DNA from: Streptomyces venezuelae ATCC 10712 | GTDB taxonomy: Bacteria; Actinomycetota; Actinomycetes; Streptomycetales; Streptomycetaceae | Length of the DNA: 64,000 nt | Assembly: GCF_008639165.1 (NCBI RefSeq) | Contig: NZ_CP029197.1 | Location: 434,001-498,000 of the forward strand | Direction of reading: 5' to 3' | Part shown: piece by piece, positions 23,644-27,949 of the stretch | How positions within the stretch are numbered: the first letter of the stretch is position 1 | Layout of the letters: the number at the start of each line of letters is the position of its first letter | Translations under genes and position numbers: made by a program | The notes under the pieces: model-generated | Seen by the model: the letters and a program-made list of their open reading frames with translations, nothing else | The model's database searches: none | Told to the model about the DNA's origin: nothing

Positions 23644-24681
23644 ATGAACCCGAGCACGATTCAGCGGGTGGTCGTCACCGGCGCCACCGGCAATGTGGGC
23701 ACGAGTCTGGTGAGGGCCCTGGCGGCCGATCCGGGCGTCGGCTCGGTGCTGGGCCTCGCCCGGCGCCGGCCGGGGCTCGAACTCCCGGGAGTGGAGTGGG
23801 CCGAGCTCGACCTCTCCCTGGACCAGGACGCTCCCCGCCTCGCGCGGTACGTCGCCGACGCGGACGCCGTGGTGCACCTGGCCTGGCGGTTCGGACCGAC
23901 CCGAGACCCGGTGACGACCTGGGAGACCAACGTCCTGGGGGCGGTACGGGTCTTCGACGCGGTCGCGGCGGCCCGGGTGCCGGCGCTGGTGTACGCCTCC
24001 TCGGTCGGGGCCTACTCCCCCGGCCCGAAGGGCGGCGCGCCGGTCTCGGAGGCCTGGCCGACGCACGGCTGGCCGGGGGCCGCGTACACCCGGGAGAAGG
24101 CCTATCTGGAACGGGTCCTCGACACCTTCGAGCGGGACCATCCGCTGATCCGGGTGGTCCGGATGCGTCCGGTGTTCCTGTTCAAGGAGGAGTCGGCGAG
24201 CGAGCAGCGCCGGATCTTCGCGGCGCGCTTCTTCCCCGGGCAGCTGATGCGGCCCGAACTGCTGCCGGTGCTCCCGGAGTTCGACGGGCTGCGCTTCCAG
24301 GTGCTGCACACGGAGGACGCGGCCGACGCGTATCGGCGGGCGGTGGTGCGGGACGTCCGGGGCGCGTTCAACCTGGCCGCCGAGCCGGTGCTCGACGGGG
24401 CGGCGCTGGGCGAACTGTTCCACGCCCATCCGGTCCGGGTTCCGGCGGGCGCGGTGCGGGGGGCGCTGGCGGCGGCCTGGCGGCTCCGGCTGGTCTCCGC
24501 CTCCCCCGGTCTCTTCGACGCCGTGCGGCACATCCCGCTGCTCGCGACCGAGCGGGCCCGCCGGGAGTTGGGGTGGGAACCCTCGCACACCTCCCTGGAG
24601 GCCCTGGAGGCCTTCCTGCGCGGCGTCCGCGCGGGCGCGGGCGACGACACGGCTCCCCTGACGGGCCACCGCGTCGGCTGA
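23644..24681 (+). CDS. NAD-dependent epimerase/dehydratase (extended SDR)
   Basis: 345 residues. The Rossmann dinucleotide motif is VVTGATGNVGTSLVRAL at residues 8-24, with SSVGAYSP and the catalytic Y-x3-K pair in AYTREKAYLE. These place it in the extended short-chain dehydrogenases that act on nucleotide sugars or similar substrates. GGAGGGT precedes the ATG by ten bases. The C-terminus ends in the substrate-binding helical part (ELGWEPSHTSLEALEAFLRG). It is not in an obvious sugar cluster, so the substrate is open. Confidence 0.85.
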   Translation: MNPSTIQRVVVTGATGNVGTSLVRALAADPGVGSVLGLARRRPGLELPGVEWAELDLSLDQDAPRLARYVADADAVVHLAWRFGPTRDPVTTWETNVLGAVRVFDAVAAARVPALVYASSVGAYSPGPKGGAPVSEAWPTHGWPGAAYTREKAYLERVLDTFERDHPLIRVVRMRPVFLFKEESASEQRRIFAARFFPGQLMRPELLPVLPEFDGLRFQVLHTEDAADAYRRAVVRDVRGAFNLAAEPVLDGAALGELFHAHPVRVPAGAVRGALAAAWRLRLVSASPGLFDAVRHIPLLATERARRELGWEPSHTSLEALEAFLRGVRAGAGDDTAPLTGHRVG

Positions 24682-24714
24682 CGCGGGGCGCCGCCGGGTG
24701 TCCTCGGTGGGCGC

Positions 24715-25575
24715 TCAGACCCGCGTGCCGGGCCAGTCGACCAGGCGGATCGCCGCGCCCGCCGCCTCGCGGCCGCGGCAGTGGGCGCGGTGGTGGCGCA
24801 TGACCGCCTCGATGTCGAGCCGGTGGGCGAACTCGGGGCGCGCGGCGAGGCGTCGGGCGTACTCCCACAGGGCCGGGTATCCGGCGACCCGGTCCATCGC
24901 CGCCGCGTCCAGATGCCAGCGGTGGACGGTGTCGAGCTGGACGAGGGTGACCCAGACCTGGACGTCGGCGGCGGTCGGGGCCGTACCGAGCACATAGGGG
25001 TGGCGGGCGAGGCGGCGGTCCAGGGAGCCGAGGGCGGCGAAGAGGACGGTGAGCGGGTCGCGGTGGGCGGCCTCGCCGTCGAGACCGAGCTCCCCGGCCC
25101 GCTGGGCGGCCCGGTTGACGCTCCGCTCGCACAGGTCGGTGACCGCCTCGATCTCGCCGCGGAGCTCCTCGGGCAGGAGGTCGGGGCCTTCGCCGCGGAA
25201 GCGGAGCGCGAGGTCCCGGAGGATGTCGGGGACATGGGTGCTGACGATCCGTCCGGTCCAGCCGTCGCTGAGGACGGGTGCGGCGGCCGGTCCGTCGTAC
25301 AGGTGCGCGCTCGCCTCGTAGAGCGGGCGGAGGGCGGCGTATCCGCCGTCGGGCCTGTCGGGGGTCTCGGGCAGCACGGTGAGCGGGAGCGTGTCGTCGA
25401 GCCCGAGCAGGCTGTGGGTGACGGCGATGCCCAGACAGCCGGGGTCGTACGGGGCGATGTGGAGGCGGTAGCGGTGGGGCACGGCGTAGTGGCCGCTGTG
25501 CACGTCGCGGCCGATCCGGCCCCGGAAGGCGGGCGCGGCGGAGGCGGGCAGCAGCGAGGACGGGACGACGGACAT
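24715..25575 (-). CDS. Glutathione S-transferase superfamily protein, glutathionyl-hydroquinone-reductase-like
   Basis: 286 residues with the omega/xi-class GST layout of YqjG/ECM4 glutathionyl-hydroquinone reductases: a thioredoxin-like N-terminal part and a helical C-terminal part (VLFAALGSLDRRLARHPYVL, then ADVQVWVTLVQLDTVHRWHL). The usual catalytic CPWA motif is missing; the aligned stretch reads PGCLGIAV, so only the cysteine is kept. Streptomyces makes mycothiol instead of glutathione, so the thiol partner may differ. The ATG at 25575 follows AAGGGAGAAGC. A cysteine-type leader ORF and two hairpins lie upstream in its transcript. Confidence 0.75.
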   Translation of the reverse strand: MSVVPSSLLPASAAPAFRGRIGRDVHSGHYAVPHRYRLHIAPYDPGCLGIAVTHSLLGLDDTLPLTVLPETPDRPDGGYAALRPLYEASAHLYDGPAAAPVLSDGWTGRIVSTHVPDILRDLALRFRGEGPDLLPEELRGEIEAVTDLCERSVNRAAQRAGELGLDGEAAHRDPLTVLFAALGSLDRRLARHPYVLGTAPTAADVQVWVTLVQLDTVHRWHLDAAAMDRVAGYPALWEYARRLAARPEFAHRLDIEAVMRHHRAHCRGREAAGAAIRLVDWPGTRV

Positions 25576-25618
25576 GCTTCTCCCTTGGGGGTGCTCGGTG
25601 CTGGGTCGGGCGGGCGGC

Positions 25619-25690
25619 GTCCGCGGCGCGGCGGACGTCGGTGAAGGGGAGGACGACGGTGGGCCGTCGACCCCGGCCGCGGCCGGCGAC
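25619..25690 (-). promoter_or_regulatory. Two hairpins between leader ORF and GST-like gene (candidate attenuator)
   Basis: Reading the minus strand after the leader stop, the first hairpin is at 25666-25690 (CCGGCC/GGCCGG core flanked by GTCG/CGAC). The second is at 25619-25636 (GTCCGC/GCGGAC, 6-base loop), 44 bases before the GST-like ATG. Together with the leader peptide they form a plausible transcription or translation attenuator; this is inference from layout. Confidence 0.45.
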
Positions 25691-25730
25691 GGCGATCGGA
25701 CGGCGACGGCGGTCGGACGGACGCGGTGTC

Positions 25731-25889
25731 TCAGCCGGTGGACACGAGGGCGGGCGGACCGCTTCGGCGGGGCCCTCGACTCGCCGCGCTGCAGACCCGC
25801 AGCAGGTCGATGTGGCGGCGTGAGGTGAGGGACAGGCGGCGCGGGAGGGGTGCGGCGAGTGTGCTGTCCCGCCGACCGCTGCGTCCCAT
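25731..25889 (-). CDS. Putative cysteine-type leader peptide, 52 aa
   Basis: A short frame: ATG at 25889 with AGGGA six bases upstream, stop at 25731. Its core, LTSRRHIDLLRVCSAASR, matches the recurrent actinobacterial 'putative leader peptide' pattern (R-x-H-I-D-L-x-R-V-x-S/A-x) found upstream of cysteine and sulfur-assimilation genes. A single Cys codon sits in the middle of the core. It ends 155 bases before the GST-like gene, which it probably controls by ribosome stalling when cysteine is scarce. A promoter-like pair lies just upstream. Confidence 0.65.
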   Translation of the reverse strand: MGRSGRRDSTLAAPLPRRLSLTSRRHIDLLRVCSAASRGPRRSGPPALVSTG

Positions 25890-25925
25890 GGTTCCCTACC
25901 TGTTCGCTCGGTTTGCCCGCCACCG

Positions 25926-25954
25926 AGTGTCGGGCCGGTCCCGGACGCCGTCAA
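25926..25954 (-). promoter_or_regulatory. Promoter of the leader/GST-like transcript
   Basis: Minus-strand TTGACG (25949-25954), a 17-base spacer, and GACACT (25926-25931) as a -10 form a housekeeping-type promoter about 35-40 bases upstream of the leader ATG. Confidence 0.5.
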
Positions 25955-25992
25955 GGGTGCGGTACGGGCCGCCTCCGAGAAGCGTGCGGAAT

Positions 25993-26010
25993 AATGCGCG
26001 CATGCGCATT
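25993..26010. promoter_or_regulatory. Palindrome over the Rrf2 start codon
   Basis: Perfect 7-bp arms AATGCGC (25993-25999) and GCGCATT (26004-26010) are separated by GCAT. The ATG of the Rrf2 gene (26002) is in the centre. Likely an autoregulatory operator. Confidence 0.5.
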
Positions 26011-26457
26011 TCAGCCAGGGCCGACTACGCGGTGCGTGCCGCCCTCCAGCTCGCCGCCGCCCAGGACGCCGGGCCGCTGAAGGCCGAGGCCATCGCCGAG
26101 GATCAGGGCATCTCGCACAAGTTCCTCGAGGGCATCCTCGGCGACATGCGCAAGGGCGGCCTGGTGCAGAGCCAGCGCGGCGGCAACGGCGGCTACTGGC
26201 TGGCCAGGCCCGCGGAGTCGATCTCGGTGGCCGAGGTGATCCGCTGCGTGGACGGCCCGCTGGTCTCGGTGCGCGGGGAACGGCCGCCGGACCTCTCGTA
26301 CACGGGTCCGGCCGAGTCGCTGCTCACGCTGTGGATCGCCCTGCGGGCCGGCGTCCGTGAGGTGCTCGGCGTGTCGCTCGCGGAGGTGGCGGCGGCGCGG
26401 CTGCCGGACGGGATCGTCGCGCTCGCGGACGATCCGGAGGCCTGGACCAACCCCTGA
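26002..26457 (+). CDS. Rrf2-family transcriptional regulator
   Basis: 151 residues: a winged-helix N-terminus (MRISARADYAVRAALQLAAA), wing (GGLVQSQRGGNGGYWLARP) and the family's SVAEVIRCVDGPL block. Only one cysteine is visible (IRCVDG), so it lacks the three-Cys cluster of IscR/NsrR-type members and fits the CymR-like, cluster-free group, some of which sense cysteine status. The start is within a palindrome and has no clear Shine-Dalgarno, so it may be translated from a very short leader. The neighbours are a cysteine-leader-controlled gene and an SfnB-like gene, consistent with a sulfur role. Confidence 0.85.
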   Translation: MRISARADYAVRAALQLAAAQDAGPLKAEAIAEDQGISHKFLEGILGDMRKGGLVQSQRGGNGGYWLARPAESISVAEVIRCVDGPLVSVRGERPPDLSYTGPAESLLTLWIALRAGVREVLGVSLAEVAAARLPDGIVALADDPEAWTNP

Positions 26458-26596
26458 CGGAAGGGGCCCCGCCGGCCCCGGCAAGAGGAGGGGCAACCGC
26501 CCCCGGCCTGCGCCGACTTGACTTCGTCTCATAAAGCAAGACGAGCCTGTCCAACCTGCGGACGCCCCTTGGGGCCTGGCCACCCCCTCTGCCACT

Positions 26597-26628
26597 ATCC
26601 CTAGTATTCCAGTGGGGATACTAGGGAT
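26597..26628. promoter_or_regulatory. 32-bp palindromic operator upstream of the SfnB-like gene
   Basis: Perfect 11-bp arms ATCCCTAGTAT (26597-26607) and ATACTAGGGAT (26618-26628) with a 10-base centre that pairs further (CC/GG). It ends 13 bases before the GTG start and contains TAGTAT as a possible -10. The AT-rich arms stand out against the GC-rich background. Confidence 0.65.
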
Positions 26629-26641
26629 CATGTGAGGTGAC

Positions 26642-27949
26642 GTGAGTACGCCGAGGAAACCGCCCGCGCACCGGACCGCCGACGACGAGATCTGGCCCCG
26701 TGTCACCCGCGAACTCGCCGACGACCTCGCCGTCGACGCCCTCGTCAGGGACCGGGCCGGCAAGGCGCCGTTCGACGAGGTCGCCCGGCTCCAGGAAGCC
26801 GGGCTCCCCGCCCTGCTCACCGCGCCCGGCCCGGACGGGCGCGGCGCCGACTGGCGGGCCGCCTGCGCCGTCATACGGGAGATATCCGCCGCCGACAGCT
26901 CCGTGGGCGAACTCCTCGCCCACCACTACGCGCTGTCCTGGAGCAGTCGCTTCTTCGGCCCCGCGCGGGAGCCCGGCGGCGGCCGGCCCGGGCCGGCTCC
27001 GGGCACGGTCGGCACCCCCCTCCACGTCCGCGCCGCCGAGGAGCGCTGGCTGCTCGCCGGGGGCATCGAGGCCTCGCGCGCCGAGAGCGGCTCGGGCCTC
27101 ACGCTCACCCCCGCCGGCTCCGGCGGATGGGTCCTCGACGGCACCCGCGCCTTCACCTCCGCGGTCTCCGTCGCGGACCGGCTCGTCGTCGGCGCCCGCC
27201 CCGGCGGCAGCGGCGACCTGCTCGTCGTCCTCGTGGACCCGGCGGGGCCGGGGGTGTTCACGGACAGCGGGCCGGAGCGGGTCGGGCAGCGCCTCGCGGG
27301 CGCCGGCACCGTCACCTTCGAGGGGGTCCCGGTGGCTCCCGAGGACGTGCTCGGCGCGCTCCCCCACGACGAGCACGCCGCCGCCCCCTTCACCACCCTC
27401 GCCCCGCTCGCGCTGCGGCTGCTCCTGACCGAGGTCGGGCTCGGCATCGCCGAGGGGGCGCTCGCCGAGGCCCGGGACATCAGCCGCGCGGGCCACGCCG
27501 GTCCGGCGCGGGCGGCCCGTCCCGCGGGCGCCCCGGACGGCTCCGTACAGTTCGCCACCGGGGACGATCCGTACCTGCTGCTCGCCTACGGGGAGCTGGC
27601 GACCACCGCGCACGCCGCCGCCGCCGTGGTGGAACGGGCGACGGACGCCCTGCACCACGGCCTGCTCACGTCCTGGCGGCTCGGCGCGGAGGAACGGGCC
27701 GACATCGCCGTCCTGGTCGCGGCGGCCGAGACCGTCACGGGCCACGCGGCCGTGCAGATCACGACCCGCGTCCTGGAACTCGTCGACGGCGAGGCGGGCG
27801 CGGACGCCCGGGACGGCGGGCCGGGCTTCGACCGCTTCTGGCGCAACGCCCGGGCGCTCACGGCCCCCACGCAGCCCGCCCACCGGCTCCGCGACATCGG
27901 CGACCACTACCTCAACGGCACCCACGCCCGGCTCACCCTGCAGGCCTGA
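26642..27949 (+). CDS. Acyl-CoA-dehydrogenase-fold flavin monooxygenase, SfnB/DszC-like
   Basis: 435 residues with the acyl-CoA dehydrogenase fold: an N-terminal helical domain, a beta-barrel region around FTSAVSVADRLVVGARP, and a C-terminal helical domain ending FWRNARALTAPTQPAHRLRDIGDHYLNG. That last block is characteristic of DszC/SfnB-type FMNH2-dependent monooxygenases that desulfurise dibenzothiophene or dimethyl sulfone, rather than true dehydrogenases. The GTG at 26642 is preceded by GAGGTGA. Two-component members need a flavin reductase, which is not adjacent. A long palindrome controls it, and the Rrf2 gene lies just upstream. Confidence 0.8.
   Translation: MSTPRKPPAHRTADDEIWPRVTRELADDLAVDALVRDRAGKAPFDEVARLQEAGLPALLTAPGPDGRGADWRAACAVIREISAADSSVGELLAHHYALSWSSRFFGPAREPGGGRPGPAPGTVGTPLHVRAAEERWLLAGGIEASRAESGSGLTLTPAGSGGWVLDGTRAFTSAVSVADRLVVGARPGGSGDLLVVLVDPAGPGVFTDSGPERVGQRLAGAGTVTFEGVPVAPEDVLGALPHDEHAAAPFTTLAPLALRLLLTEVGLGIAEGALAEARDISRAGHAGPARAARPAGAPDGSVQFATGDDPYLLLAYGELATTAHAAAAVVERATDALHHGLLTSWRLGAEERADIAVLVAAAETVTGHAAVQITTRVLELVDGEAGADARDGGPGFDRFWRNARALTAPTQPAHRLRDIGDHYLNGTHARLTLQA

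Follow-up and report, generated by a model that had tools for sequence, protein, structure and literature searches.

An apparent leader peptide ORF with a conserved core and a shifted cysteine upstream of a Xi-class GST-like gene in Streptomyces

Genomic setting of the leader ORF

The source genome, that of Streptomyces venezuelae ATCC 10712, is a single contig of 8.22 Mb, and the window (the whole 64,000-nt stretch of DNA that was analyzed) comprises its positions 434001-498000. On the minus strand of the window a promoter motif, a dyad-like box, a 52-aa ORF, a 155-nt spacer and a GST-like gene follow one another in that order, and genes for an Rrf2-family regulator and an acyl-CoA-dehydrogenase-like protein lie beyond the promoter on the plus strand. 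The features, in window coordinates, are:

24715..25575, minus strand: Xi-class GST-like gene, 286 aa (profile and model matches)
25576..25730, minus strand: C-rich, G-poor untranslated spacer, candidate Rho-loading region (C minus G +0.22)
25731..25889, minus strand: leader ORF, 52 aa plus stop, ATG start, with the codon-position pattern of peptide-level selection
25782..25829, minus strand: conserved core LTSRRHIDLLRVCSAA (142 loci, parsimony counts)
25791..25793, minus strand: single Cys codon TGC, at position 8 counted from the core His (Cys in 134/142 loci)
25892..25918, minus strand: dyad-like box, candidate operator, between the -10 element and the leader ATG and overlapping the presumed leader ribosome-binding site
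25926..25931, minus strand: predicted -10 element GACACT (same motif matches as the -35 element)
25949..25954, minus strand: -35 element TTGACG (motif recurrence)
26002..26457, plus strand: divergently oriented regulator of the Rrf2 family, with a single Cys (the CymR and IscR models fit it about equally well, and neither reaches its cut-off)
26642..27949, plus strand: acyl-CoA-dehydrogenase-like protein related to SfnB/DszC (its matches fall short of the NCBIfam cut-offs)

The 52-codon leader frame proposed in the initial annotation is confirmed on the minus strand, with its ATG start and a core that is invariant among relatives. Residues 24-37 of the ORF are RRHIDLLRVCSAAS, and 19 sense codons follow the Cys in this copy; among the relatives' leaders the stop codon varies in place, from codon 12 to tens of codons further along. 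The good ribosome-binding site that had been assigned to the frame stands in part: GGTAGGGAACC precedes the ATG (25890-25900), but its GGTAGGGAA doubles as the right half of the conserved dyad-like box and therefore may not be only a ribosome-binding site.

Selection on the leader peptide

Conservation of the core among close relatives had been named beforehand as one of the points on which the proposed leader could fall. We scanned for the core, without a fixed motif, in 149 loci (all of the 150 listed relatives except G119, which starts at a contig end and was left out of both the reading and the scan), and it is conserved in 142 of them. These 142 have 12-15 of the 15 core residues identical and the other seven have at most 6, with none between; among the seven low scorers is L029, whose leader lies outside the scanned stretch. 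L-T-x-R-x-H-x-D-L-x-R is unchanged in all 142 cores, the invariant positions being L-4, T-3, R-1, H1, D3, L4 and R6. Pairwise differences in the core are 0.033, 0.036 and 0.305 at the first, second and third codon positions (142 loci), and those in the 18 codons before it are 0.50, 0.60 and 0.57 (94 loci) in an ungapped comparison that indels inflate. Parsimony on a tree built from a GST fragment of 66 residues, a short basis, gives no change at the seven invariant positions, 8 changes at position 8, 23 at position 5 and 50 at position 12 (142 loci).

As 136 of the 142 cores were chosen through a leader-profile match, a strongly diverged core could appear only among the 13 listed places that had no such match; none was found in the 12 of these that were read. 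GC-rich DNA contains many open frames, and a chance ORF would be nothing unusual there; that explanation is refuted by the codon-position pattern and the conservation, and we give it practically no weight. The same pattern shows that the 52-aa frame is a leader ORF selected as a peptide.

Linkage of the leader to the GST-like gene

The GST protein has matches in 341 of 392 genomes of the genus (E 1e-20), some of which are weaker paralogs. The GST and leader match lists each hold the best 150 matches, and the linkage figures apply among the matches listed: a leader match on the same strand lies within 3 kb of 137 of the 150 GST places and within 600 bp of 136, and reading of 12 of the 13 remaining places uncovered the core in six more, so that 143 of the 150 listed relatives have the leader upstream of the GST gene. 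The linkage is thus genus-wide. Among the other seven places, four (L152, L156, L157 and L158) have the promoter and box with the core absent, one (L154) has a different upstream gene, in one (G040) the assembly breaks and the leader sits on a different contig, and the seventh is G119. In G187 (locus L029) the leader lies 1.6 kb from the GST gene because of a stretch inserted between them; by eye this insert (about 2400-3800 of L029) reads like an IS200/IS605-type TnpB gene. By eye, too, the leader start of L157 is seemingly fused in frame to the GST start. L033 and L092 are one and the same locus.

A set of 57 loci comes from named genomes, all Streptomyces. The core is present in 51 of the 57, including L224 (S-2 to V), a count limited by L202 (272 nt of upstream sequence only) and L219 (a run of N). 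Among the named loci without the core, L214 and L222 retain promoter and box, L211 retains the promoter motif, and in L213 only a promoter-like sequence remains by eye; L214 is apparently the same strain as L152. In other genera, five genomes have a leader match at E up to 1e-6 (those listed score 33.8 to 35.7 bits), the sample being composed largely of Streptomyces.

Promoter, dyad-like box and divergent genes

A promoter had been proposed upstream of the leader, and its motif does recur: the window has TTGACG-17-GACACT, and the pattern TTGAC[GC]-17/18-[GC]A[GC]ACT occurs in 93 of 94 loci; a somewhat relaxed version of it is present in 44 of 48 additional loci. This recurrence argues for the promoter assignment; a generic sigma-70 scan did not report TTGACG-17-GACACT. 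The commonest bases of the dyad-like box in relatives are GGGAATCCTAGTGAACnGGTAGGGAA, where the right half served as anchor in 84 of 92 loci and the left half was free to vary. Since the box is still present in four loci that have no leader core, it is not only a ribosome-binding site.

Of 102 loci (one of which is counted twice, and most of which include 0.8 kb upstream), 37 contain an Rrf2 homolog, which lies on the leader strand in six; among the 57 named loci it is found in 40. By its position only, the Rrf2 protein is a candidate binder of the box. It is conceivable, then, that the leader is a fossil and that the gene is controlled at its promoter by the Rrf2 regulator through the dyad-like box; the frequent adjacency of the regulator agrees with this, as does the persistence of box and promoter in the four coreless loci and, among the named loci, in L214 and L222 for example. 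An invariant peptide with free third positions in 142 loci is, however, not what a fossil would retain, and in S. clavuligerus the core is kept though the box looks degraded by eye. We regard this explanation as very unlikely.

Directly before the acyl-CoA-dehydrogenase-like gene lies a palindrome, CCTAGTATTCCAGTGGGGATACTAGG (26600-26625), which occurred in 0 of 100 shuffles. Palindromes of this kind are seen in 21 of 94 locus records (the source genome included and some genomes represented twice), and CCTAGTATTCCAGTGGGGATACTAGG is possibly the operator of a sulfur regulator.

The downstream GST-like gene

The gene was searched as 24724-25575, that is, without its last two residues. Its profile matches are the Xi-class structures 4pts, 3r3e, 4fqu and 4uss, and the best Foldseek matches of its predicted model (residues 1-28 of which are unreliable) are likewise Xi-class, with TM-scores of 0.62 to 0.70 by query length. 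It had been described as glutathionyl-hydroquinone-reductase-like. The Xi-class fold bears this out, but the catalytic Cys is not conserved. The window protein has D-P-G-C (D44-P-G-C47) at what we take to be the site of the catalytic Cys in GS-hydroquinone reductases; within the genus residues 44-47 drift among C-P-x-C, D-P-x-C and C-P-x-G/A, and in 27 GST sequences neither active-site Cys column reaches invariance or the 90% level.

The GST gene is on the same strand as the leader and linked to it, and its presumed sulfur role is read from its neighbors in other lineages. There, SsuE scores over its family cut-off, SsuD and cystine-ABC proteins score below theirs, and of three NtaA/DmoA-type neighbors one is over and two are below (five loci were fetched for this search, which took in ten proteins from three of them and had L167 and L168 outside it). 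In S. clavuligerus the order is ssuE, an annotated "putative leader peptide", GST, and LLM/NtaA monooxygenases. These SsuE, SsuD-like, cystine-ABC-like and NtaA/DmoA-type neighbors favor sulfur scavenging, and together with the unconserved Cys columns they leave the thiol-dependent redox repair first proposed for the gene without support. They suggest that a role in sulfur scavenging is the better guess.

Relation to known leader peptides

The leader is of a kind already known to NCBI, and the leader-GST pair is annotated in at least one record, that of S. clavuligerus (WP_009999368.1, "putative leader peptide"). In NCBIfam the window leader matches NF042934 and NF042936 only, both below cut-off. 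It resembles NF042934 (cis_reg_atten, "putative leader peptide") in its R-x-H-x-D-L-x-R core and in being a short ORF before a presumed sulfur gene, and scores 25.1 bits against a curated cut-off of 27 (24.9 bits in a six-frame search of the genome); with NF042936 (Ms4527A Cys-rich leader) it scores 28.5 bits against 45. Thirteen of 28 orthologous leaders tried, from hand-chosen relatives, reach the NF042934 cut-off when this is taken as E 2.5e-6, our own conversion of 27 bits.

The source genome contains 21 NF042934 matches, of which we read ten (L034-L043, E up to 0.005) and left out the 11 weaker ones. Six of the ten are over the cut-off and four are below, the GST leader included. By eye, the genes behind the sister leaders are a MoaD/ThiS-like gene with cysteine synthase, cysteine dioxygenase with rhodanese, sulfite reductase, sulfatase, an ABC permease, rhodanese, a DctA/TcyP-like symporter, a flavin reductase and a 2OG oxygenase; one of the ten leaders precedes an isopenicillin-N-synthase-like dioxygenase and one a flavin-reductase-like gene. 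The likeness to leaders of actinobacterial sulfur genes, which had been put forward for this ORF, is therefore borne out by the two family matches and by nine sisters, most of which precede sulfur-like genes.

In the open literature we found no paper on the GST leader, nor on a Cys that has changed position and been lost several times next to a peptide that does not vary. Mycobacterial cysteine leaders are reportedly the subject of Canestrari et al. 2020 (Mol Microbiol 114:93), which PMC13236596 and PMC9094748 cite. These leaders share with the GST leader a Cys-containing short ORF, placed before sulfur genes in mycobacteria and before a presumed one here. They differ in that the GST leader has one Cys where they have a run, has a presumed ribosome-binding stretch where they have a leaderless start, and has a C-rich spacer with no consistent partner for the ribosome-binding site. 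For S. lividans, the available part of PMC8079986 lists eight leaders, none of the GST-leader type.

The cysteine is shifted and repeatedly lost

In all nine other leaders read in the source genome, position 12, counted from the core His or the residue equivalent to it, is a Cys (9/9, found with a model that may itself reward C12). This C12, which is our reading and not a curator's rule, is absent from the GST leaders (0/142), which have Cys8 instead (134/142). C12 is also present in 30 of 30 sister leaders before sulfite reductase and 30 of 30 before rhodanese. These sets were grouped by downstream gene with a strict motif (first eight positions fixed, C12 free) and are the best 30 of 62 and 60 matches, hence nearest relatives; their third-position differences are 0.087 and 0.094, against 0.305 in the GST leaders, so the C12 contrast is partly due to divergence and 60/60 is weaker than it looks. 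The low third-position variation of these sister cores (L259-L318) may also mean RNA-level constraint there.

Eight GST leaders lack Cys8 and keep the remaining core, with Ser (6), Ala (1) or Arg (1) in its place, and by parsimony these losses are eight changes. The S. clavuligerus leader (L226:3701-3826), counted apart from these, also has Ser for Cys8, with the core otherwise kept and a Cys near the N-terminus. The Cys of the GST leaders is thus shifted and less constrained than the surrounding peptide, which weakens the case for cysteine-codon counting, and control of the GST gene by cysteine via the Cys8 codon is uncertain.

A different sensor could be at work, in which the nascent core rather than the Cys codon responds, through arrest or slowing in the exit tunnel by a sulfur metabolite or the translation state, with the Cys as a dispensable aid. 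Seven core positions unchanged in 142 loci, set against 8 changes at Cys8 and 50 at position 12, are what such an arrest peptide would leave, and a simple codon counter would not need the conserved neighbors. The increase in Cys8 losses from 5/94 in the first set of loci to 8/142 in the enlarged one favors the peptide as well, and two sister leaders have nearly constant cores, but since third positions of those sister sets also vary little, this constancy is weaker evidence. Nevertheless, 134 of 142 loci still have Cys8, the copies without it may be in decay, and peptide conservation could instead serve pausing at the Cys. On balance we hold arrest by the nascent core to be possible but rather unlikely here. 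Its wider form is a tentative and doubtful suggestion: that the R-x-H-x-D-L-x-R core is an arrest-type sulfur sensor across the leader family, the Cys having moved four codons and been repeatedly lost in the GST leaders.

Spacer composition, RNA structure and Rho

The spacers of relatives are C-rich and G-poor, with C minus G positive in 91 of 91 and a mean of 0.216 (3 of 94 loci were left out, two for overlap of leader and gene and one for its 502-nt spacer, and the spacer and box counts precede the 48 later loci). Control gaps, 41 annotated upstream gaps of S. clavuligerus, average 0.017, and six of the 41 reach 0.15; the Mann-Whitney p of 7e-16 for this comparison is indicative only, as related sequences are not independent. 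The 23 predicted genes of the window have 0.045. Sister leaders share the property: the mean spacer value is 0.24 for the ten source-genome leaders (the GST one included), and it is positive in 30 of 30 of each of the two sister sets. Rho prefers C-rich, G-poor RNA, which makes it the favored reader of the spacer, and the C-richness suggests Rho-dependent attenuation.

TnaC of E. coli offers a parallel in its conserved peptide residues, its C-rich untranslated spacer and the failure to find a terminator-like site; unlike TnaC, the GST leaders have no conserved stop codon position. We know of no sequence relation between TnaC and the GST leader. TnaC is Rho-dependent and acts by nascent-peptide arrest, according to the available parts of PMC1262725 and PMC10941005, respectively. 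The former, as far as available, also reports that cysteine leaders of mycobacteria, P. acnes and B. longum have no obvious terminators, and suggests Rho for them. Because the stop codon of the GST leaders moves freely, a ribosome paused at the Cys would have no fixed distance to the spacer, and the 19 sense codons after the Cys in the window copy weaken the idea of a TnaC-like occlusion of the Rho site and leave the sign of the response open.

The two hairpins that the initial annotation had placed downstream of the leader are not established. No terminator-like site was found downstream of the leader, the fold of 25576-25809 (core to gene) is no better than shuffles (z -0.36), and an Rfam search of 24000-27000 gave no match at E up to 1; a classical hairpin attenuator was rejected on the first two of these results. 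All six subgroup alignments fold at lower energy than their column shuffles, four of them by >2 SD, but this is a weak control: column shuffling destroys stacking, so these folds count neither for nor against structure, and lineage-specific RNA structure is possible. Separately, L097, L126, L132, L138, L150 and others have in common a stretch resembling GACGACGCTTCCGCCGCGCGTACGTC ahead of the GST start; it could fold into a hairpin and was partly recovered in one subgroup fold (clade2a).

RNA structure would also matter for translational attenuation, in which the GST ribosome-binding site would be masked by the leader transcript until a paused ribosome made it accessible. With a predicted mean unpaired fraction of 0.22 (90 loci, this gene only), the GST Shine-Dalgarno region is compatible with this, some subgroup alignments fold better than column shuffles, and the mycobacterial cysteine leaders are a precedent in the available part of PMC13236596. 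Across the same 90 loci, however, we found no consistent pairing partner for that site in leader or spacer, the single-sequence fold does not beat its shuffles, and the spacer runs from 56 to 502 nt, with leader and gene overlapping in two loci by start call. We consider this mechanism doubtful.

Proposed mechanism

The explanation that we prefer, as probable though held with no great assurance, is that a translated, cis-acting leader of the actinobacterial cysteine kind puts a Xi-class organosulfur-scavenging GST gene under sulfur/cysteine-starvation control. Transcription would begin at the conserved promoter, and the leader would then be translated. A shortage of Cys-tRNA would cause the ribosome to pause at the core Cys codon, and the invariant nascent peptide L-T-x-R-x-H-x-D-L-x-R would help the pause. 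The pause would in turn alter the fate of the C-rich spacer, most likely by deciding whether Rho terminates transcription ahead of the GST gene. From the sequences we infer leader translation, pausing, the cysteine signal, the part of Rho and the sign of the response.

Significance

If this proposal is correct, Streptomyces would have a sulfur response that parallels the mycobacterial one and is driven by some ten short leader ORFs, and the GST gene would shift from redox repair towards sulfur scavenging. The GST leaders would be natural experiments, with their shifted Cys, eight Cys losses, and loci that have promoter and box and are coreless. They let one ask whether cysteine codons are counted or a peptide signal is used; should the core prove to be of the arrest type, a single peptide sensed by the ribosome would govern an entire group of sulfur genes.
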